Made by a program: the position numbers and the translations under genes
Assembly: GCA_003567685.1 (NCBI GenBank)
Contig: PWYW01000101.1
Coordinates: 1-64,000, forward strand
Direction of reading: 5' to 3'
Length of the DNA: 64,000 nt
From: Gammaproteobacteria bacterium
Lineage (GTDB): Bacteria > Pseudomonadota > Gammaproteobacteria > Xanthomonadales > Wenzhouxiangellaceae
The notes under the pieces: model-generated
What the model was told of the DNA's origin: nothing
What the model saw: only the letters and a program-made list of their open reading frames with translations
The model's database searches: none
In this document: piece after piece, positions 6,671 to 15,367 of the stretch
How the letters are laid out: every line of letters starts with the position of its first letter
Position numbering within the stretch: position 1 is the first letter of the stretch

Positions 6671-7162
6671 TCAGCGGTGCAGCATGGCCGGCTTCATTGG
6701 CGCCAGCAGCGCAATCACCTGGTTTTCCAGCCGGTACGGCACGCCGGTTTCACGCATTGCCAACTGGAAATCTTCGACCAGCGCGTTGAATTCACGCGAG
6801 GAGATGTTCTGGCCCACGTGAGCGCTTTCCATGTCCAGGCCTTCATAACGACAGGGTCCGCCAGCCAGCTCGCAAATCTGCTCGGTGAGATGGAATTTCA
6901 AATGATCGAGATTGGAATCAACGAAAAGCTCGGCGATTTCCGGGTTGACGACCAGACGCTCGACGCCGCGATCGACAAACTGCTCGATGGTCGAGCGGCC
7001 GCCCAATCGGTCATACAGCGAACTGCGTTCGGTACCCAGGCGCTCATACAGCGTGCGGTCGTAGTTCTTCAGGTCTGAAGGGCCGTCGGAATCATGGCTG
7101 GGCACGCTGCCGCAGGCAACCAGCATGAACAGCGAAGCAAGGATGATGGGGCGAAAAATCAT
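6671..7162 (-). CDS. Lipoprotein-anchored group 1 truncated hemoglobin
   Basis: A 163-residue heme protein. Residues 1-17 are a lipoprotein signal with lipobox LVAC (Cys17), so the globin should be tethered outside the cytoplasm. The 2-on-2 globin domain spans about 48-158: SLYDRLGG opens it, and His115 in MESAH is the likely proximal ligand. A Cys97/Cys104 pair lies in QICELAGGPC. Where cyanobacterial homologs have Phe-Tyr at B9-B10, this one reads Gly-Val, so the usual distal Tyr seems absent. ATG 7162 is preceded by AGGAGAG; the in-frame upstream start overlaps the DUF3034 gene. It is second in that operon. The ligand (O2, NO or sulfide) is unknown. Confidence 0.87.
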   Translation of the reverse strand: MIFRPIILASLFMLVACGSVPSHDSDGPSDLKNYDRTLYERLGTERSSLYDRLGGRSTIEQFVDRGVERLVVNPEIAELFVDSNLDHLKFHLTEQICELAGGPCRYEGLDMESAHVGQNISSREFNALVEDFQLAMRETGVPYRLENQVIALLAPMKPAMLHR

Positions 7163-7179
7163 GGAACTCTCTCCTGGAA

Positions 7180-8217
7180 TCAAAAGGCAGCCTGCAGCGA
7201 CAGATACGCCGCGCGTGATCTGGGCTGGAACGGCAGATTGCCCAGATCGACATAGGCTGCGGTCAGCGCAAAGGTCTTGTTCGGGAACCAGGCAATGAAG
7301 ATGTCCCAGGCATCATCCTCGGCCGCCAGGTCAGGCGCACCCAGAAGGCCCAGCACCGGCTGATTGGCCAGTCGGTTGGACTGAGTACGGTATTCAGCGC
7401 CAATCACCACGTTGGGGTGCACGAACAAACCAACCGAGCCCTCGTACTCCAGGCGATAGGAATTGGATCGGTCCAGCAGTTCGCCGTCGAGCGGGTTGAT
7501 GACTTCTCGCCCGAAGCCCAGCAGGCCGAAGGCATTGGCACGGGTCGCGCGAACGGTGCCGTTGACGATCAGGTTGTAGCCCATCGGTACGCCAAGAAAC
7601 ACCTTGGTGGCGCTCAAGTAGTAGTCGATACCGCGGCTGCTTTCGGCGCCCAGCAGGGCCGGCACGCCGACATCACCCAGGTAGGGAACCTCAACGCCGT
7701 TGTCGAAATCCCGATTGCGCTTGTACTGAACACCCAGTGCAACCTGCGGTAGCCAGGAATCCTGAGCGTAGACGGCGTCGCCAAACAAACGGACCTTGGC
7801 TCCGATAATGTCCATGTCAATGGATGTGCCGCTTGGGCTGACATCGCCGGGCGGCCCCAGGATAGGTTCCAGACCGCCGACCAGCGCACCCGCTGTCGAG
7901 GCAATGACGGTGCGATCAACGTCCAGTCGCTGCGAGGCCACCGACAATTCCAGCCGGTCGAAGAACCCCAGCTTGACACCACCGGATCGCAGCGAATAAT
8001 CGTCGATGCCCATGTAGGTGAAGTGCGCCGACCCACCAATCTCGTCGGCCGTGCCGTAACCGGCAATCAAGGCCCAGGGCGTCAAACCACCGCCCCCTGC
8101 CCCTTCAAACTGGGTGACACCCCCGGTACCCAAAAGCCGACCACCCGTGGCATGACTCACTGAAGACACCAAAAGCAAAACGCAGAACAGGGCTGATCTT
8201 GTTGACAAGGCTTTCAT
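7180..8217 (-). CDS. DUF3034 family outer-membrane barrel-like protein
   Basis: A 345-residue exported protein. A signal peptide (ALFCVLLLVSSVSHA) is followed by the glycine-rich opening LLGTGGVTQFEGAGGGG and by alternating amphipathic beta strands ending in an aromatic residue (LQAAF). This end is typical of outer-membrane barrels. The family function is unknown. The start is ATG 8217; an upstream in-frame GTG at 8226 lacks a ribosome site. It is first in a two-gene operon with the hemoglobin lipoprotein, 17 bp apart. An ECF-like promoter (8247-8277) lies about 30 bp upstream and is shared with the cupredoxin gene. Confidence 0.82.
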   Translation of the reverse strand: MKALSTRSALFCVLLLVSSVSHATGGRLLGTGGVTQFEGAGGGGLTPWALIAGYGTADEIGGSAHFTYMGIDDYSLRSGGVKLGFFDRLELSVASQRLDVDRTVIASTAGALVGGLEPILGPPGDVSPSGTSIDMDIIGAKVRLFGDAVYAQDSWLPQVALGVQYKRNRDFDNGVEVPYLGDVGVPALLGAESSRGIDYYLSATKVFLGVPMGYNLIVNGTVRATRANAFGLLGFGREVINPLDGELLDRSNSYRLEYEGSVGLFVHPNVVIGAEYRTQSNRLANQPVLGLLGAPDLAAEDDAWDIFIAWFPNKTFALTAAYVDLGNLPFQPRSRAAYLSLQAAF

Positions 8218-8246
8218 GGCACTCACTTTGACGATGGCTAAAATCT

Positions 8247-8277
8247 GATACGCTCCTTTCGTCTGAATGGATGCACC
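8247..8277 (-). promoter_or_regulatory. ECF-type promoter of the DUF3034-hemoglobin operon
   Basis: Read leftward, the box GGTGCATCC (8277-8269) is followed by exactly 16 bases and then CGTATC (8252-8247). The same arrangement precedes the cupredoxin gene at 11800-11830. The GTGCATCC block and CGTA core fit -35 and -10 elements of an extracytoplasmic-function sigma factor, and the predicted start would leave a leader of roughly 20-30 bases. Assignment to the sigma factor encoded next door is inference. Confidence 0.72.
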
Positions 8278-8310
8278 GAAGCCAGGAAGCTGGCAGCCAG
8301 AGATCGTGAA

Positions 8311-8899
8311 TTGAAGAAGCCTGACCAGCCATCAACGCCGGAAATTTGGATTACCGACATCATTCAAGGCGATGTCAGTGCACTGGAATGTTTGTTTGAT
8401 CGCTTCGCCGATCATGCCTACGCCATCGCGGTCAGCATTGTTCGCAACCCTGGCGAAGCCGAGGAGATCGTCAACGACGTATTCGAAGCCGTGTGGCTCC
8501 AGGCTGGTCGTTTCGATCAGGCACGAGGGAGCGTGGCCAGCTGGATCGGCAATCATGACTCGCAGCCGAAGCCTCGACCGTTTGCGCAAGCTCAAGCGAA
8601 CGGTCACTGCCGGTGCGCATCCGATCGATGACTCATCAACGTATGAATCCAAAGAATGGGACGAACCAGATTCGCAGACCGATCGGCAATCCATTCAATG
8701 CCTCGTTGAGGGCGCTTTCAAGCAGTTGAGTCCGAGCCAGGGCATGACGCTTCGACTGGCCCTTTTCGAGGAACTGAGTCATCGCGAAATTGCCCAACGC
8801 TTGAACATGCCGTTAGGCACCGTGAAATCACACTGCAAACGTGGCCTGGCAAAGCTCAAGGCTCAACTGCACGAATTGGACCGATTCTTGTTGGAATGA
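8311..8899 (+). pseudogene. ECF sigma factor, interrupted by a one-base frameshift
   Basis: Two overlapping reading frames together encode one ECF sigma factor of about 195 residues. From a TTG start at 8311, the first frame gives region 2 (ALECLFDRFADHAYAIAVS, then EAEEIVNDVFEAVW) up to GSVASWIG. The second frame continues from about 8554 with TRSRSLDRLRK and region 4 (SHREIAQRLNMPLGTVKSH). One extra base in the AATC at 8551-8554 accounts for the break; removing it restores the usual five residues between the Trp and the RSR motif. No slippery heptamer is visible. It is divergent from the DUF3034 gene, and its stop overlaps the cupin start. It may be a true pseudogene or a sequence error. 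Confidence 0.85.
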
Positions 8900-9348
8900 G
8901 TAACCCTACGGCGCATCAGAAAGCACCCGAACCGCTGACGGAGCATCGCAAGGAGTCGATGAAGCACCGGCTGCTGGCCTCGGTGGGTAAAGAGATGGAG
9001 GTGGTGCGCGGCCATGCAGCGCGCTGGGTTTCACTGTTGCCGGGCGTTCGCTACCAATTGCTGAATGCCGATCGCCGGGTTGGCGTCCAGACTGCGCTCT
9101 GGCGCATGGACCCCGGCTCGCATATCCCGGCCCACCCCCATAGCCAGGACGAAGAGTGCTTCATTTTCGAAGGTAGCGTCGAGATTCGCGGCGAGCGTTA
9201 TACCGCCGGCGATTATATGTTGGCACCAGCGGGTAGCCGTCACAGCAAGATTCGCAGCAAGGAAGGCGTTCTCATGTTGATTCGAGGCGAGCGCATCACG
9301 CTGCGCGATCGCCTTCTTCTAAGAACGGCGGCCTACCTCGGCTACTAG
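8896..9348 (+). CDS. ChrR-like cupin protein, candidate anti-sigma factor
   Basis: A 150-residue protein with a cupin domain over about residues 65-130. Metal-ligand candidates are His80, His82 and Glu86 in AHPHSQDEE, with His116 in the second motif. The family is the cupin half of ChrR, the anti-sigma factor of the RpoE-ChrR singlet-oxygen system. Unlike ChrR, there is no N-terminal zinc-binding anti-sigma domain; the first 45 residues are a short charged helix. Its ATG overlaps the sigma stop (ATGA). Position suggests it controls that sigma factor by sensing a metal or oxidant, but this is not shown by sequence. It converges on the propeller gene with a 7-bp gap. Confidence 0.82.
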   Translation: MSNPTAHQKAPEPLTEHRKESMKHRLLASVGKEMEVVRGHAARWVSLLPGVRYQLLNADRRVGVQTALWRMDPGSHIPAHPHSQDEECFIFEGSVEIRGERYTAGDYMLAPAGSRHSKIRSKEGVLMLIRGERITLRDRLLLRTAAYLGY

Positions 9349-9355
9349 TTGGCTC

Positions 9356-10777
9356 CTAGCGGTTTCTCCTGACCAGCCACCCCATGGCCATCAGCGTCAG
9401 GCCCAGCGCCAGCACCAGGACCACCCAGGGCAAAATCGGCGAACGTACCAGACGATACTCAATGGGCCCGTGCGGAACCCCCCAGGCATCCACGAGATCA
9501 ACCCTCAAAACCACGTCTCCCAACCCCATGGTCACAAACTGTTCAAGGCGACCGGACTGCCAGGACGGAGAACGTTCTCCATTCGGGGTGTCTGTGCCTG
9601 TCAACGAAAAACGGACGGCGTGCGGCCGTGCACTGTCCGAGGTGCTTATCTCGATCTGGCCGCTCCGGGTGAGTAGTCCGATCGGGTTGTCTCCGGGCTG
9701 CAAGGCCAGCCCATCCAGCGTTGCCATCACGGTTGGTGCAGCGCTGCCTGCCCTGGTCTGAGGCCTCATTTGCCAGACGCCCGCAGTCGAACCCGCCCAA
9801 ATCGATCCATCGCTGTCACGACGCGCAGGCCCGGTCCATTCAATTCCGTGCTCCAGGCCATCACGCGCGTCAAAGGCGGTCCATTCTCCAACCTGGTTGC
9901 GATCAAGGTGCCATCGAGCCACCCCCTCATCGTGGAAGAGGTACAAGCGTCCCTGGTCATCGCGCAACAGGGCGCGGGTCGGTGGCGGTTCATCGAAAAG
10001 ACCGGCCAGGTCGATGGGCCGGCAGGCGGGATTGTCGCTGATTTCCAACACGAAAGGACCGCGGGCCGTGGCAATGGCCAGATGTAGAACTCCCTGGAAC
10101 TCGACCGTCTCGGCACCGAGCACTTGACGCCCGCGAAGACATTCGGCTCCAGGCCTTGACCACTGTCCGCCAACGTATCGACCAAGCCCTTCTGAACTTA
10201 CCACCCAACGCTCACGCTGGTCCTCCATCACCAGACGCCGAAACTGTTGTACCCGACCGCCCGGGAACCCGTCCGGCCGGGCGCTGACCGGCATCCATCG
10301 ACCCTGTTGACCAATGAGGAGGCCGGCATCGCCGCCGATCCAGAGATCGGCACCCGCGCCACGCGCCTGATCGAATATCAACGCATTGATGGGCTGGTCG
10401 ATCAAGGGCATGATCTCCTCACCAAGCCGACTGAGACCCTGCTCCGGGCTGAACACTGCCAACCCCTCATGGCCTCCAATCCACCAGCTGGTCTGGCCAT
10501 CGGGCCCCGGACCAAACGCCACGGTGGCGACGCTTCGCAGCTCCTCGCCGCCGGGCATCCAGGCGTTCCAACCCGCTTCCGACCGCCGGTACAAGCCCGC
10601 GTCGGTTCCAATCCAGGCACTGGTTCGGCCATCCGGGAACTGAATTTCACCCATGCCGGTGACTGTCGCATCGGCAATCGATGAAGGCAGTGGCAGCCGC
10701 TCCCAGCGTTCAGCAGCCGGCCCGACGGTTGGCAAGACCGCGAGAAGCACGAGAAAAATCAGCCCTTGCTTGATCAT
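9356..10777 (-). CDS. Membrane-anchored beta-propeller sensor-like protein without output domain
   Basis: A 473-residue exported protein. After a signal peptide (LIFLVLLAVLPTVGPAA) come about six two-component-regulator-type propeller repeats with a WIG...GL core (for example WIGTDAGLY, WIGGHEGLAVF, WIGGDAGLLI, WAGSTAGVW). A beta-sandwich like the Y_Y_Y domain follows near 345-440. One transmembrane helix ends the protein with an Arg-rich tail (LVRRNR). Such propellers normally feed a histidine kinase or GGDEF domain; here nothing follows. Its ATG overlaps the cupredoxin stop (ATGA), so the two are probably co-translated. The ligand is unknown. Confidence 0.77.
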   Translation of the reverse strand: MIKQGLIFLVLLAVLPTVGPAAERWERLPLPSSIADATVTGMGEIQFPDGRTSAWIGTDAGLYRRSEAGWNAWMPGGEELRSVATVAFGPGPDGQTSWWIGGHEGLAVFSPEQGLSRLGEEIMPLIDQPINALIFDQARGAGADLWIGGDAGLLIGQQGRWMPVSARPDGFPGGRVQQFRRLVMEDQRERWVVSSEGLGRYVGGQWSRPGAECLRGRQVLGAETVEFQGVLHLAIATARGPFVLEISDNPACRPIDLAGLFDEPPPTRALLRDDQGRLYLFHDEGVARWHLDRNQVGEWTAFDARDGLEHGIEWTGPARRDSDGSIWAGSTAGVWQMRPQTRAGSAAPTVMATLDGLALQPGDNPIGLLTRSGQIEISTSDSARPHAVRFSLTGTDTPNGERSPSWQSGRLEQFVTMGLGDVVLRVDLVDAWGVPHGPIEYRLVRSPILPWVVLVLALGLTLMAMGWLVRRNR

Positions 10778-11763
10778 CGTTGACGGTACGGCTCGCCGTG
10801 CTTGTTGGTGTGCTGGGGAACCGCCGGGCGGGTGATGTCCACTCCGAGTTCGGCTACCTCGGCTACGCCATCCAGGTTCAGGTTGATCCGCTGCAAGGGC
10901 TCTTCGGCCCGGTAGTTCCAGACCAGCAGTTGGCCCGGACCCTCGGGCAGGCCTTCCAGGTCGAATCGGCCGTCAGCATCCGGTGAAACGAAAAAAGGCG
11001 TTTCCAGCACCAGGACAAACGCTGCCATGTTCGGATGGATGTTGCAGAACAGTTCCACGACACCGCTGCCGATGAAGCGATTGCTGGCTCCCTCGCCTTC
11101 ACCGTACATGCCAACATCGAACTGGTGCCCGGGCGTCAATGAAAACACGTTGTGTTCGATGGAATCCATATTGGGGAATCGAACCGAGGTGCCGGAAGTC
11201 ACTGCCATGGTCTGGGGGAAGAAACGACTGCTCCGGGTAACGATCTGGCGCTCTTCCATTGGCCGGGCGGCCGGTCCGTTGTCCGGCTTCCAGGCCACTA
11301 TGGTCTGGTTGAGGAACGTGGCCGCACCAGCCATCGGCCGGTTGTTCCTGGTCACGGTGATCCTGCCACCAATCGCGCCGCTGAAATCGTCAGGCTCGGC
11401 GTCTTCCGGCAGGGCTTCGGGCTCGGCTTCCCGCTCGACGGGCTCGGGCGCAAAGCGGGGTTGATCAGCAGGTGCCGGATCAATGCGGGGCTGGACGGGC
11501 GCGTCTGGCGCCGGTGCAGGCTCTTCACCCGGCAGGACAGCGGGATCAACAGACTCAACCCGCTCCTCTTCCTCCAGCGCGGGCGCGGGATCGGTTCGAG
11601 GCGGCTGTGCCGGCACCGGTGGGGCTGACGGGCCCGCCGGCTCGTCGGCCGGAGGTGGCGCGGAGTCGTCGCTCGGTCTCGGTGGAATCGGCTCTGGCGA
11701 TTCCACCACGCCCGCACAGCCAACCAGCATGGCGACCATCAGGCAAATCACTGCATATTTCAT
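10774..11763 (-). CDS. Cupredoxin-domain lipoprotein with blue-copper ligand set
   Basis: A 329-residue lipoprotein (lipobox LVGC, Cys16). A Pro/Ala/Glu-rich spacer of about 110 residues leads to a cupredoxin domain near 130-255. Predicted type 1 copper ligands are His204 (SIEHNVFS), Cys240, His243 and Met246 (LFCNIHPNM). A small Ig-like carboxypeptidase-regulatory-type domain follows (PDADGRFDLEGLPEG). Similar proteins are often labelled methylamine utilization protein, but no methylamine genes are here. The start is ATG 11763 after AAGGGG. An ECF-like promoter lies at 11800-11830, matching that of the DUF3034 operon. A role in electron transfer or copper sensing at the envelope is inference. 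Confidence 0.84.
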   Translation of the reverse strand: MKYAVICLMVAMLVGCAGVVESPEPIPPRPSDDSAPPPADEPAGPSAPPVPAQPPRTDPAPALEEEERVESVDPAVLPGEEPAPAPDAPVQPRIDPAPADQPRFAPEPVEREAEPEALPEDAEPDDFSGAIGGRITVTRNNRPMAGAATFLNQTIVAWKPDNGPAARPMEERQIVTRSSRFFPQTMAVTSGTSVRFPNMDSIEHNVFSLTPGHQFDVGMYGEGEGASNRFIGSGVVELFCNIHPNMAAFVLVLETPFFVSPDADGRFDLEGLPEGPGQLLVWNYRAEEPLQRINLNLDGVAEVAELGVDITRPAVPQHTNKHGEPYRQR

Positions 11764-11799
11764 CGTTAACCCCTTGGGATTATTTTTCACCGTCCTTGG

Positions 11800-11830
11800 G
11801 TTACGTTGAAATCAGTAATGCGGATGCACC
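11800..11830 (-). promoter_or_regulatory. ECF-type promoter of the cupredoxin-propeller operon
   Basis: Read leftward, GGTGCATCC (11830-11822), a 16-base spacer and CGTAAC (11805-11800). The boxes and the spacer length match the promoter of the DUF3034 operon 3.5 kb away, while the spacers themselves are unrelated. That is the pattern expected of two targets of one sigma factor. The predicted leader is about 30 bases. Confidence 0.72.
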
Positions 11831-11848: not shown

Positions 11849-14800
11849 CTACATATTGCGCCGGTACTCCCCGCCCACTTCGTACAGCGAATGGCTGATC
11901 TGGCCCAGTGAGCAGCGCTTGACGGCTTCCATCAAGGCTTCGAAGGTGTTGCCACGTTGGCGGGCAACGTCCTGGAGTTGCCTGATGACGGTGTCTGAGT
12001 GCTCGGCATTGCGCTGCTGGTAGGCGCGCACGTTGGCGACCTGCTGCTGTTTTTCCGCTTCGGTCGAGCGGGCCAGTTCGATTTCGCCGCCCTCCTGTTC
12101 GCCGCCGTCGGGCGGCAGGAAGGTGTTGACGCCGACCAGCGGCAGCGAACCGTCGTGCTTCTTGTGCTCGTAGTAGAGCGATTCTTCCTGGATCTTTCCG
12201 CGCTGGTACATGGTGTCCATCGCACCCAGCACGCCGCCACGCTCGGAGATGCGCTCGAATTCCTGGTAGACGGCTTCTTCGACCATGTCGGTCAGGCGGT
12301 CAACGATGAAGCTGCCCTGCCAGGGGTTTTCGTTGTAGTTCAGGCCCAGTTCCTTGTTGATGATCATCTGGATGGCCACGGCACGGCGCACCGATTCCTC
12401 GGTTGGCGTGGTGATGGCCTCGTCGTAGGCATTGGTGTGCAGGCTGTTGCAGTTGTCGAAGATCGCGTACAGGGCCTGCAGCGTGGTCCGGATGTCGTTG
12501 AACTGGATTTCCTGGGCGTGCAGCGAGCGACCCGAGGTCTGGATGTGGTACTTCATCATCTGCGAGCGCTTGTCGGCGCCGTAGCGCTCGCGCATGGCTC
12601 TGGCCCAGATGCGGCGGGCCACCCGGCCAATCACGGTGTATTCCGGGTCCATGCCGTTTGAAAAGAAGAACGACAGGTTGGGCGCGAACTCGTTGATGTC
12701 CATGCCGCGTGCCAGGTAATACTCGACGATGGTGAAACCGTTCGACAGCGTGAAAGCGAGCTGGCTGATCGGGTTCGCTCCGGCTTCGGCAATGTGATAG
12801 CCGGAGATCGACACCGAGTAGAAATTCCGCACCCCGTTGTTGATGAAGTACTGCTGGATATCGCCCATCATGTGCAGGGCGAACTCGGTCGAGAAGATGC
12901 AAGTGTTCTGGGCCTGGTCTTCCTTCAGGATATCGGCCTGGACTGTGCCGCGAACCACTTTCAGGGTGTCGGCCTTGATTCTGCCGTAAGTTTCGGCATC
13001 AAGCAGCTGGTCGCCGGTCACGCCCAGCAGGCCAAGCCCCAGACCATCGTTGGTTTTCGGCAGCTGGCCGGTGTATTCGGGCAAGTCGTTGCCGAGCAGT
13101 TGGCTGCGCTTTTTCTGCGCTGCCTCCCACTGGCCGGTTTCCTTCAGGTGCTTTTCCACCTGCTGGTCGATGGCAGTGTTCATGAACATCGCCATCAGCA
13201 TGGGCGCCGGGCCGTTGATGGTCATTGACACCGAGGTGGTCGGGTCGGCCAGATCGAACCCGGAATACAGTTTCTTCATGTCGTCGAGCGTGGCAATCGA
13301 CACGCCCGAGTTGCCGACCTTGCCGTAGATGTCGGGGCGCTCGGCCGGGTCTTCACCGTACAGGGTGACCGAGTCGAAAGCGGTCGACAGACGCTTGGCC
13401 GGCTGGCCTTCCGAGACGTAATGGAAGCGTCGATTGGTCCGTTCCGGAGTGCCTTCGCCGGCAAACATGCGGATCGGGTCTTCGTTGGTGCGCCGATACG
13501 GGTAGACACCGCCGGTGTAGGGGTAATGACCCGGCAGGTTTTCTTTCATCAAAAAGACCAGCTGATCACCCCAGTCCGAGGTCTGCGGCGCGGCGATCTT
13601 GGGAATTTGCAGGCGCGAGAGCGACTCGCGGTAGTTGGAACCGGTGATGGTGCGGCCGCGGACTTCGTAGCTGTATTCATCGGCTTCGACCGAGGCCTTG
13701 AGCGCCGGCCAGCCCTTGAGCAGGTCGCGGGCGTGTTCGGGGATGGCCTTCAGCGCTTCGTTGTAGCGCTCGATCAGCAAGGAAGAAGGGAGTTGGTTTT
13801 CCTGCCCCTCTTCCGTCTTCCCTCTTCCGTCTTCCTTTCCAGCAATTGACAGAAGCTCCAACGGCTCCGCATCAAGACCGGGCGCCAGTTCCTTCAACAC
13901 TTCAAAATAATGCTGCGCACGCCGGGCTTCTTCGGCCCAGTGCAGGACGCTTTCATTAATGCCCCGACCCTGCTCGGCAATCTCGGCGAGGTAACGCACC
14001 CGCTTGCCCGGAATCAGCACCGACGGCTTCGGATCCCTGTCCGCCAGCTCCACGTCAGGCGCAAAGTCGCACCGCGCCGTGCCGAACGCCGTCTCCCCTC
14101 TTCCCTCTTCCGTCTTCCCTCTCTGCCGCAGAATGCGGCAGAGATTAGCAAACATCCACGTCACCCCCGGATCATTGAACTGCGAGGCAATGGTCGGATA
14201 AACCGGCACGTCCTCGTCGGCCAGCTCGAATGCCATGCGGTTGCGTTTCCACTGTTTGCGAACGTCGCGCAGGGCATCCATCGAACCCTGGCGGTCGAAC
14301 TTGTTCAGAATCACCAGCTCGGCAAAGTCCAGCATGTCGATTTTTTCAAGCTGGCTGGCCGCGCCGTAATCGGAGGTCATCACGTAGACCGGGAAGTCGA
14401 CCAGGTCGACCACCTCGGAATCCGACTGGCCGATGCCGGCTGTCTCGAGAATGACCAGATCAAAACCGGAGGTCTTGAGCAGCGACAGGCTGTCGCCGAC
14501 CACTTCGGAAACGGCCAGGTGCTGGCGGCGGGTGGCCATCGAGCGCATGAACACCCGGTCCGAACGCAGCGTATTCATGCGGATCCGGTCGCCCAGCAGC
14601 GCGCCGCCGGTGCGCCGGCGGGTCGGGTCGACGGCCAGCACACCGATTTTCATGTCAGGGAAGAACTGCAGGAAACGGTTGATGATCTCGTCGGTCACCG
14701 ACGACTTGCCCGCCCCGCCGGTGCCGGTCAGACCAACGACCGGCACGCCAGAGAGCTCGCTGGCCTGCTTGCGAATGCGTGCCAGTTCGTGCTCGGAAAT

Positions 14801-15367
14801 CGTGCCGGATTCAATCTCGGACAGCTTCAGCGCAATCTCCGGATCAACCGATACGTCCTCCCTCTCCCGTCTTCCGTCTCCCTTCTTCCCCAGGAAGCGT
14901 TCGACCCGCGCTTTTCGCGTTCTGGCCACCAGGTCCTCAATCATTTCCTTCAGGCCCATCTTCATCCCGTCGTCGGGGTGGTAGATGCGGTTGACGCCCT
15001 GCGCCTGCAGGACCTTGATTTCTTGCGGCGTAATCGTGCCGCCACCGCCGCCGAACACCTGGATGTGGGAGGCGCCCTGCTCGGCCAGCATGTCAACCAT
15101 GTACTTGAAGAACTCGTTATGACCGCCCTGGTAGGAGCTGATGGCAATACCGTCCGCGTCTTCGCAAATCGCCGCGCGCACGATGTCGGCCACCGAGCGG
15201 TTGTGGCCCAGATGGACCACCTCGCAGCCCTCAGCCTGTATAAGCCGACGCATCAGGTTGATCGCGGCATCGTGGCCGTCAAAAAGGCTGGCAGCGGTGA
15301 CGAATCGCAGCGGCGCGTCGTCTTGCTGGGTGACGGCGGCAGAGACGGTTTCGGCAGTCTGGCTCAT
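11849..15367 (-). CDS. icmF: Fused isobutyryl-CoA mutase IcmF with heptamer-repeat insertions
   Basis: A 1172-residue cobalamin enzyme fused to its own G-protein chaperone. Order: B12-binding domain (about 20-155, DGHDAA motif), MeaB-like GTPase (about 205-430, P-loop GTGGAGKS), linker, then the mutase barrel (about 560-1160). This order defines IcmF, which interconverts isobutyryl-CoA with n-butyryl-CoA and also isovaleryl-CoA with pivalyl-CoA. Known IcmFs are near 1090 residues. Part of the excess comes from three 35-bp heptamer tracts giving Gly/Lys/Glu/Arg-rich stretches near residues 160-171, 415-426 and 511-523, all in or beside interdomain linkers. The start follows GGAG. Leucine-pathway genes are 4-6 kb away. 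I expect it to be functional, as all core motifs are intact. Confidence 0.93.
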   Translation of the reverse strand: MSQTAETVSAAVTQQDDAPLRFVTAASLFDGHDAAINLMRRLIQAEGCEVVHLGHNRSVADIVRAAICEDADGIAISSYQGGHNEFFKYMVDMLAEQGASHIQVFGGGGGTITPQEIKVLQAQGVNRIYHPDDGMKMGLKEMIEDLVARTRKARVERFLGKKGDGRREREDVSVDPEIALKLSEIESGTISEHELARIRKQASELSGVPVVGLTGTGGAGKSSVTDEIINRFLQFFPDMKIGVLAVDPTRRRTGGALLGDRIRMNTLRSDRVFMRSMATRRQHLAVSEVVGDSLSLLKTSGFDLVILETAGIGQSDSEVVDLVDFPVYVMTSDYGAASQLEKIDMLDFAELVILNKFDRQGSMDALRDVRKQWKRNRMAFELADEDVPVYPTIASQFNDPGVTWMFANLCRILRQRGKTEEGRGETAFGTARCDFAPDVELADRDPKPSVLIPGKRVRYLAEIAEQGRGINESVLHWAEEARRAQHYFEVLKELAPGLDAEPLELLSIAGKEDGRGKTEEGQENQLPSSLLIERYNEALKAIPEHARDLLKGWPALKASVEADEYSYEVRGRTITGSNYRESLSRLQIPKIAAPQTSDWGDQLVFLMKENLPGHYPYTGGVYPYRRTNEDPIRMFAGEGTPERTNRRFHYVSEGQPAKRLSTAFDSVTLYGEDPAERPDIYGKVGNSGVSIATLDDMKKLYSGFDLADPTTSVSMTINGPAPMLMAMFMNTAIDQQVEKHLKETGQWEAAQKKRSQLLGNDLPEYTGQLPKTNDGLGLGLLGVTGDQLLDAETYGRIKADTLKVVRGTVQADILKEDQAQNTCIFSTEFALHMMGDIQQYFINNGVRNFYSVSISGYHIAEAGANPISQLAFTLSNGFTIVEYYLARGMDINEFAPNLSFFFSNGMDPEYTVIGRVARRIWARAMRERYGADKRSQMMKYHIQTSGRSLHAQEIQFNDIRTTLQALYAIFDNCNSLHTNAYDEAITTPTEESVRRAVAIQMIINKELGLNYNENPWQGSFIVDRLTDMVEEAVYQEFERISERGGVLGAMDTMYQRGKIQEESLYYEHKKHDGSLPLVGVNTFLPPDGGEQEGGEIELARSTEAEKQQQVANVRAYQQRNAEHSDTVIRQLQDVARQRGNTFEALMEAVKRCSLGQISHSLYEVGGEYRRNM
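13801..13835. repeat. Heptamer tract 1 inside icmF
   Basis: Five seven-base units on the plus strand: one degenerate CCTGCCC, then CTCTTCC and GTCTTCC alternating. The 35-bp tract, with flanks, encodes a charged low-complexity stretch (GKEDGRGKTEEGQ) in the linker before the mutase barrel and does not break the frame. Confidence 0.85.
14091..14125. repeat. Heptamer tract 2 inside icmF
   Basis: Five units of the [CG]TCT[TC]CC type (GTCTCCC, CTCTTCC, CTCTTCC, GTCTTCC, CTCTCTG), 35 bp. It encodes RGKTEEGRGE at the end of the GTPase domain. The family and length match the other two icmF tracts. Confidence 0.85.
14855..14889. repeat. Heptamer tract 3 inside icmF
   Basis: Five seven-base units (GTCCTCC, CTCTCCC, GTCTTCC, GTCTCCC, TTCTTCC), 35 bp, encoding GKKGDGRREREDV between the B12 domain and the GTPase domain. 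Confidence 0.82.

Follow-up and report, generated by a model that had tools for sequence, protein, structure and literature searches.

We analysed a stretch of 64,000 nucleotides (the window) from a gammaproteobacterial genome assembly of the Wenzhouxiangellaceae (contig PWYW01000101.1, positions 1 to 64,000), in which two operons for envelope proteins lie on either side of a gene pair encoding an extracytoplasmic function (ECF) sigma factor and a cupin protein. These genes probably constitute an ECF sigma circuit that targets two envelope operons and has a putative cupin promoter within the sigma gene; it would be self-limiting if the cupin acts as a brake on the sigma factor. A reading of the window from its letters alone (the sequence-only reading) had proposed a single stress-sensing regulon here; the copy of the promoter boxes inside the sigma gene was absent from it.

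The sigma/cupin pair and its flanking operons

Exact matches to the pattern GGTGCATCC-N16-CGTAWC occur twice in the window, both on the minus strand, at 8247-8277 and 11800-11830, and 100 dinucleotide shuffles of the window each contained none. The two boxes are therefore genuine and not a product of chance. This confirms the sequence-only reading, which had placed GGTGCATCC-N16-CGTA(T/A)C ahead of both operons: the boxes are on the right strand, comparison of the two sites shows that their spacers are unrelated, and the ECF sigma and cupin genes do lie between the operons, overlapping as ATGA at 8896-8899. The operons occupy the minus strand, and the sigma/cupin pair between them the plus strand, as follows.

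6671-7183, minus strand: lipoprotein group 1 truncated haemoglobin, PF01152, lipobox LVAC (Pfam, Protein Data Bank (PDB), simple lipobox pattern)
7180-8226, minus strand, probable start ATG at 8217: DUF3034 protein, PF11231, probably a porin-like beta-barrel (Pfam, AlphaFold2, Foldseek)
8247-8277, minus strand: proposed target promoter of the DUF3034-globin operon, GGTGCATCC-N16-CGTATC (exact pattern, kept in the genus)
8311-8899, plus strand: ECF sigma gene in two frames that switch near 8550 (open reading frames, Pfam)
8614-8646, plus strand, core match at 8617: third copy of the boxes, GCATCC-N17-CGTAT, within the sigma gene and facing the cupin gene
8896-9348, plus strand: cupin-only ChrR-like protein, PF12973, with HxH-x3-E-x-C ... 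H (Pfam, alignment, PDB)
9356-10777, minus strand: predicted propeller, Ig-like domain and one final helix, no cytoplasmic output (AlphaFold2, PDB search)
10774-11790, minus strand, probable start ATG at 11763: type-1 copper lipoprotein (HN ... C-x2-H-x2-M), lipobox LVGC
11800-11830, minus strand: proposed target promoter of the cupredoxin-propeller operon, GGTGCATCC-N16-CGTAAC (exact pattern, kept in the genus)

The core pattern GCATCC-N15-18-CGTA has exactly three sites in the window: the two ahead of the operons and one inside the sigma gene. Across the whole genome, TGCATCC-N16/17-CGTA matched the two window sites and one site on another contig, against one match of the reversed pattern that served as control. 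Scanning 8100-9400 for sigma-70-type promoters gave one weak site where 0.5 were expected.

The sigma gene of the window is split between frames. Pfam finds Sigma70_r2 in one frame and Sigma70_r4 in another, and a whole-genome search recovers the gene as two pieces, 8317-8550 and 8549-8878, of which the region 4 piece scores 49.9 against a cut-off of 42.9 in the TIGR02937 sigma70-ECF model. Intact copies exist in the genus, as nine sigma open reading frames from eight other genomes are each a single open frame. The ECF architecture (regions 2 and 4 only, about 200 residues) is thus present in relatives as one frame and in the window in two, the result of a mutation or of an assembly error. For the sigma factor of the relative L021, the nearest solved structure is Rhodobacter RpoE (1.5e-25).

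The cupin had been called ChrR-like, and this stands for its cupin part. It matches Cupin_7 (9.3e-23), has the C-terminal cupin-like domain with metal ligands that is a feature of ChrR (H80, H82, E86, C88 and H116 are invariant across 16 aligned sequences), and its best PDB relative is ChrR (3o14, 2e-7). What is missing is the zinc anti-sigma domain of ChrR: the motif H-x3-C-x2-C is absent from the N-terminal stretch of every cupin match listed and of the 16 aligned sequences, in a list where some rows include out-of-frame upstream letters and to which the ChrR-like protein of locus L055, with its zf-HC2 match, does not belong. The cut-offs of the curated ChrR models are not reached either (27.5 versus 300 bits and 26.8 versus 124.5 bits). 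Because the cupin lacks this domain, we can only infer that it would inhibit the sigma factor. A second, weaker ChrR-like cupin match (55 bits) lies on another contig of the same genome (L106, G000:C96).

Distribution of the boxes in relatives

We sampled 30 genomes of the genus, here called Wenzhouxiangella. DUF3034 was found in 10 of them and a close cupin (>220 bits) in nine, all nine among the ten with DUF3034 (Fisher, 7e-7). The nine pair-bearing members, which include the genome of the window, have TGCATCC-N16/17-CGTA before DUF3034 in 9/10 loci, and the tenth locus, L021, has the one-base variant TGCATCT. Boxes also precede the cupredoxin gene in five of six loci, the exception, in L018, preceding a kinase-type sensor. 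Another member of the genus, G002, possesses DUF3034 and the globin without a close cupin and without a site. The whole-genome counts follow the same line: the nine pair-bearing genomes contain 29 matches versus 6 of the reversed pattern, 19 of them in the locus and 10 outside, so that sites outside the locus are near background (10 versus 6), and the 13 genomes searched among the 21 members without the pair contain 7 matches versus 12 reversed, which is no excess.

Outside the genus, counts refer to the loci fetched from other families together with those of the genus, and a genome is cupin-positive at 115 bits or more. The cupin survey covered 299 genomes, 81 of them named; absence of the cupin in some genomes of the order means that it was not among the matches listed, and G103 and G215, with matches of 93-98 bits in the class scan, were counted as cupin-negative. 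Cupredoxin loci carry the boxes in 12/16 cases in cupin-positive genomes and in 1/21 cases in the others (untrimmed profile starting upstream of the promoter, with one row of 14 upstream bases left out). For DUF3034, boxes lie directly upstream in 17/37 cupin-positive loci versus 4/37 cupin-negative ones (trimmed profile; L086 excluded, L025 and the second piece of L028 skipped, and the negative L074 with only 5 bases upstream).

Many of the 20 cupin-positive misses have boxes at the head of a longer operon. Six of them (L045, L056, L057, L059, L061, L066) belong to a cupredoxin-sensor-DUF3034 run on one strand that is headed by the boxes, and in four others, from family f2 (L050, L087, L088, L091), a gene for a secreted protein stands between the boxes and DUF3034. 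Pfam assigns the L088 copy of this extra gene, first labelled COG4315, to Lipoprotein_15. Handles such as f2 and f3 stand for GTDB families. With the runs, the inserted-gene loci and the L021 variant included, boxes head 28/37 cupin-positive DUF3034 loci, and at least one box-headed DUF3034 operon is found in all 24 genomes that have this sigma type and DUF3034, by a sorting made after the fact in which the genome of the window, G010 and G018 were classed by hand (linker split or one box base off). In G408 the sigma/cupin pair lies on one contig and the boxes before DUF3034 and cupredoxin on another.

The gene set and the boxes upstream of DUF3034 and cupredoxin genes are thus conserved in relatives, and this conservation supports the view that the boxes and the two operons form one regulon linked to the sigma/cupin pair. 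The proposal of a single regulon holds in this respect, with the addition that the module of DUF3034, globin and, in many cases, cupredoxin extends well beyond the regulon.

In other families the count is 89 matches versus 21 for the reversed control over 17 genomes, of which 13 have this sigma type and four belong to family f3; this excess leaves room for further targets there. G422, G455, G530, G658 and others have more box matches than the locus explains, which are possible further targets. G634 has just two sites in its whole genome, and these fall within the locus, with a control of 0.

Boxes were also seen in other gene contexts. Where pairs are located away from DUF3034 (L095, L096, L099, L100), boxes precede a divergent gene, which is DUF4331 by Pfam in L095 and L100 and by resemblance only in L096 and L099; in L097 and L098 they precede genes for TPR proteins. 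In family f3 (L055, L047, L046), boxes of the TGCATCC-N16-CGTA kind stand before desaturase-like and alpha/beta hydrolase-like genes and before DUF3034 (Pfam for L055). A gene for a zinc-plus-cupin ChrR-like protein is present in L055 too, together with an ECF gene that is preceded by a sense site.

A copy of the boxes in the linker of the sigma gene

Loci L016-L106 contain 37 sigma matches. In the linker that joins region 2 to region 4, 23 of them show HP-x5-[AST]-Y at the protein level, and we picked these 23 by that pattern. All 23 spell this linker as G-CAT-CCN-N15-NCG-TA(T/C), which equals GCATCC-N17-CGTA on the sense strand. The preceding base is T in 20 genes and C in three. In the window the site is retained as GCATCC-N17-CGTAT. 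The choice of synonymous codons is strikingly narrow: the linker His is CAT in 23/23, with other conserved His columns divided between CAT and CAC (13 to 8 and 8 to 12), and it is the sole single-codon column among 36 conserved degenerate columns. The codon before Tyr ends in CG in 23/23 despite the change of residue (Ala 18, Ser 4, Thr 1). The linker Pro is encoded only by CCG or CCA, and a purine at this position is also present in 13/15 target boxes. Judged by this comparison of genes, the internal site is under selection at the DNA level.

No sense site was found upstream of the sigma gene in any of the 23 linker-pattern genes. Among the remaining 28 sigma genes an internal site is absent throughout, and five have an upstream site. 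The distance from the internal CGTA to the sigma stop codon is 232-256 bases in 21 genes and 319 bases in two. Two cupin genes, in L092 and L093, have no sigma gene found beside them and have boxes just upstream of the cupin gene itself; the genome of L093 (G407) has a related sigma gene on another contig, and that of L092 (G415) has no sigma match above about 70 bits. Because the codons are fixed, no sense site lies upstream and the boxes of L092 and L093 directly precede the cupin gene, the internal site looks like a promoter of the cupin gene.

The sigma/cupin pair itself belongs to a wider group, since related pairs occur outside the order. None of the 14 loci read there (L174-L187) has an internal site, and we rejected the idea that the site is a general trait of such pairs.

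An arrangement of this kind is described in a study of Corynebacterium glutamicum, where rshA alone is transcribed from a SigH-dependent promoter that lies within sigH, while housekeeping promoters serve sigH itself (PMC3489674). The likeness consists of an operon that combines an ECF sigma gene with the gene of its regulator, an intragenic sigma-dependent promoter and a proposed shut-off loop. The differences are that SigH is actinobacterial and RshA of the zinc type, whereas here the putative regulator is a zinc-less cupin and the site, known from sequence, lies in linker codons. Transcription starts there are mapped 62 and 66 bases before rshA, and here 232-319 bases separate the internal CGTA from the sigma stop.

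The pair can also be compared with ECF11 RpoE-ChrR of Rhodobacter and rpoE2-chrR of Shewanella, which share overlapping sigma and regulator genes, the HxH-x3-E...H cupin and a related promoter (PMC4336711, PMC6852236); the ECF11 motif in Table 1 of PMC4336711 is TGATCC-N16-CGTA. Our pairs differ from these in having no zinc anti-sigma motif, in the box TGCATCC with N16 or N17 in place of TGATCC, in the lack of a sense site upstream of sigma in 23/23 genes, and in the targets found (photolyase and Cfa genes were not searched for). Since the zinc motif, the model cut-offs and the TGATCC box all fail to match, we do not file the pair as a member of ChrR or ECF11 on these sequence features. Our literature search, which covered open-licence papers only, found no description of this gene set or circuit; the main ECF classification may already name this sigma group.

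Envelope proteins, alternatives and the proposed circuit

The sequence-only reading had assigned four envelope proteins to the regulon. They find support to differing degrees. The lipoprotein haemoglobin matches Bac_globin (2.7e-14), belongs by its best PDB matches with the group 1 truncated haemoglobins HbN and GlbN, and has the lipobox LVAC. It shares the fold family with HbN and GlbN and differs from them in being a predicted lipoprotein with its gene beside that of a probable barrel. A simple pattern finds a lipobox in 32/65 globin homologues, so that not all of them need be exported lipoproteins. The blue-copper lipoprotein, with its lipobox LVGC, has a blue copper protein as its best PDB match, a weak one (0.0046), and the type-1 copper ligand set C-x2-H-x2-M is present in all 38 homologues scored. 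HN[VI] is seen in 20/38 rows, in L077 probably by chance, and the first His is not confirmed in distant rows. Amicyanin-like or MauL would be a fitting name. Neither this protein nor the propeller protein has a Pfam match at E 0.1.

Of the other two assignments, the barrel is weakly supported and the propeller is supported as a fold. DUF3034 is a firm family match (5.1e-87), and the best of five AlphaFold2 models has 12 strands, with predicted local distance difference test score (pLDDT) 52.6 and predicted template modelling score (pTM) 0.54; the other four models reach a pLDDT of 27-32. Foldseek matches this model best to OmpG/FapF porins, at E 6.5e-7 and weaker, with a query TM score of at most 0.45 in the 50 matches listed. 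By this weak model the protein is probably a porin-like beta-barrel, and it may lie in the outer membrane. The propeller fold of the supposed sensor is borne out by AlphaFold2 (pLDDT 73.9, pTM 0.69, from an alignment of three sequences) and by Foldseek, with the periplasmic sensor BT4663 as best PDB match (3.4e-17). A role as a sensor for the sigma factor finds no backing in the model: the protein has 473 residues and ends just past a helix at 449-472, so that the predicted cytoplasmic tail is one residue or a few, and the kinase or other output domain of hybrid two-component sensors is absent. In the models it resembles sensors of the BT4663 kind in its propeller, Ig-like periplasmic part and one helix, and it differs from them in being shorter, with apparently one propeller and no kinase or output domain. 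Y_Y_Y is the label that we presume for the Ig-like part.

The same proteins occur together with other signalling parts. Among 60 DUF3034 loci from the order and class, 53 have a globin match and 32 a cupredoxin match within the stretches read, some of which end at contig ends. By these gene arrangements, DUF3034, globin and often cupredoxin form a module found well beyond the regulon. We scanned 26 of the 37 genes directly after cupredoxin for domains: 12 encode dCache-HAMP-GGDEF-EAL proteins, six encode Cache-type Ser/Thr kinases, one (L060) a degenerate kinase, and seven encode short proteins (308-369 residues) without an output domain, two of them without any Pfam match. Each of the seven output-less sensors comes from a genome that has an ECF/cupin-type pair; for six of them the pair is of the close kind and for one (G469) of the zinc-and-cupin kind. 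Cupin-positive genomes (G013, G429, G505) account for 3/18 output-bearing sensors, and a further copy of the module is present in each of these genomes. In Wenzhouxiangella (the window, L016, L021, L024, L026) the output-less propeller occupies the sensor position. From this distribution it seems that the sigma/cupin pair takes the place of the other outputs. Since an output-less protein has no evident way of passing a signal inward, the sensing may be done by the cupin itself.

Swaps of the output between lineages can be seen at the cupredoxin-adjacent sensor, for example in L039, L042, L036, L064 and L031. Some lineages have cupredoxin followed by a Cache-type Ser/Thr kinase, which resembles the kinase-ECF43 pairs of the PknS/EcfK type (PMC13147305); L065 adds a nearby sigma gene to the kinase and cupredoxin genes. 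No such kinase is present in the window, and the likeness in relatives is one of gene arrangement only.

On the minus strand at 11849-15367, adjoining the regulon, is an open reading frame of 1172 residues that we take to resemble a fused acyl-CoA mutase.

The circuit that we favour would operate as follows. The sigma factor would read promoters of the form TGCATCC-N16/17-CGTAT. In our view the cupin likely holds it back until a cytoplasmic oxidant or metal cue arrives, and free sigma would then switch on the DUF3034-haemoglobin and blue-copper-propeller operons, whose products would deal with a periplasmic oxidant or reactive gas. The linker codons of most relatives that share this sigma type contain the promoter copy, which would transcribe the downstream cupin alone. 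If the cupin is a brake, active sigma would make more of its own brake, and the response would shut itself off. That the promoters are active, that the cupin inhibits, what the signal is and what the effectors do are steps that we infer from sequence comparison. As to the signal, our first guess is an oxidant or reactive nitrogen, because the cupin part of ChrR is required for the singlet oxygen response (PMC6852236, PMC8999054), and because f3 boxes (L055) precede desaturase and esterase-like genes; a copper signal is less likely.

Several observations weigh against this circuit. With the sigma gene of the window broken, this strain may no longer have a working circuit. The cupin has no counterpart of the zinc domain with which ChrR inhibits its sigma factor. 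Nine of the 37 cupin-positive DUF3034 loci have no boxes at their head, of which five are extra copies (L049, L067, L077, L079, L082) and four are from genomes without this sigma type (L051, L063, L070, L078), and the four cupin-negative loci with boxes, L055 among them, all come from family f3. G415 has the cupin and boxes with a best sigma match of 70 bits. Several families have sites outside the locus, and G505, whose two sites both belong to the locus, gives three matches of the reversed control. As for the internal site, L019 and L023 of the genus have one altered base in its minus-35 box; the linker pattern needs six changes on the tree, at least three of them forced, and a single gain is not supported; and the product of codon frequencies, 10^-23.8 if the genes were independent, is too strong, as related sigma sequences are not independent, though the end branches of the sigma tree are long (median 0.53). 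The boxes, their distribution and the codon selection are all support at the level of sequence.

Four alternative explanations have to be weighed against these data. Instead of braking the sigma factor, the cupin might assist it or act as an effector in the cytoplasm, and the internal promoter would then add it to the regulon with positive or neutral feedback. This is in keeping with the lack of a zinc anti-sigma motif among the cupin matches listed or aligned, with L092 and L093, where the cupin gene carries boxes of its own and no neighbouring sigma gene was found, and with G415, where a good sigma match is lacking. We nevertheless consider it somewhat unlikely, given that the sigma gene is adjacent to the cupin gene or overlaps it in the 23 cases read, that the nearest named relatives of the cupin are ChrR anti-sigma factors, albeit far below cut-offs (27 bits; 3o14 2e-7), and that ChrR requires its cupin half in order to respond (PMC6852236, PMC8999054). 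A response to copper, and not to oxidants or nitric oxide, would agree with the copper ligands in all 38 cupredoxin homologues; its weak point is that the boxes of L055, in family f3, precede a fatty-acid desaturase and an esterase-like protein, which are nearer to membrane or oxidant stress, and we regard it as unlikely.

It is improbable that control lies with another sigma factor, one of the ECF11/RpoE-ChrR type, and that the local pair is a degenerate bystander. The motif is indeed a cousin of the ECF11 promoter in Table 1 of PMC4336711, DUF3034 in family f3 has TGCATCC-N16-CGTA(T/C)CT, with an ECF gene and a zinc-finger-cupin ChrR-like gene nearby in G469, and both the broken sigma gene of the window and G415 would fit. 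Yet the excess of sites within the genus is confined to members that bear the pair, with none in the 13 searched without it, and G002 has DUF3034 and neither the pair nor any site. Most improbable is that the internal site is kept only for the residues His-Pro...Tyr of the linker, with the DNA match as a by-product. Conservation does extend to the protein pattern, whose frame never varies, but synonymous positions are fixed as well (CAT 23/23, NCG with a varying residue, Pro as CCG or CCA only), and the site matches both boxes and a spacing that target promoters use. On this codon use we rejected protein conservation as the only cause. A sigma circuit with two envelope operons and an internal cupin promoter thus remains the reading that we prefer. 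More tentatively, and with somewhat less than even confidence, we propose that it represents a new kind of ECF module, in which the regulator is a zinc-less cupin-only protein, the linker codons of the sigma gene spell the recognition sequence of the sigma factor and serve as the promoter of this regulator, and the pair has replaced cyclic di-GMP (c-di-GMP) and Ser/Thr-kinase outputs, leaving output-less sensors behind.

As far as seen, our literature search found no account of a role for DUF3034. One mention, in a figure legend of PMC12548924, appears where the surrounding text discusses DUF3037 and is probably a slip. The circuit would supply the DUF3034 family with a testable regulator and promoter, and it ties the family to a lipoprotein haemoglobin and a blue-copper protein. 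If the internal promoter is true, one stretch of DNA carries two codes, a protein linker and a promoter read by the same protein. Should the cupin prove to be a brake, the circuit would limit itself through a site in the sigma gene, and its ChrR-like regulator would work without the zinc domain. An exchange of c-di-GMP, kinase and sigma-factor outputs around a single periplasmic module would, if true, make these bacteria a good system for studying how signalling parts are swapped.

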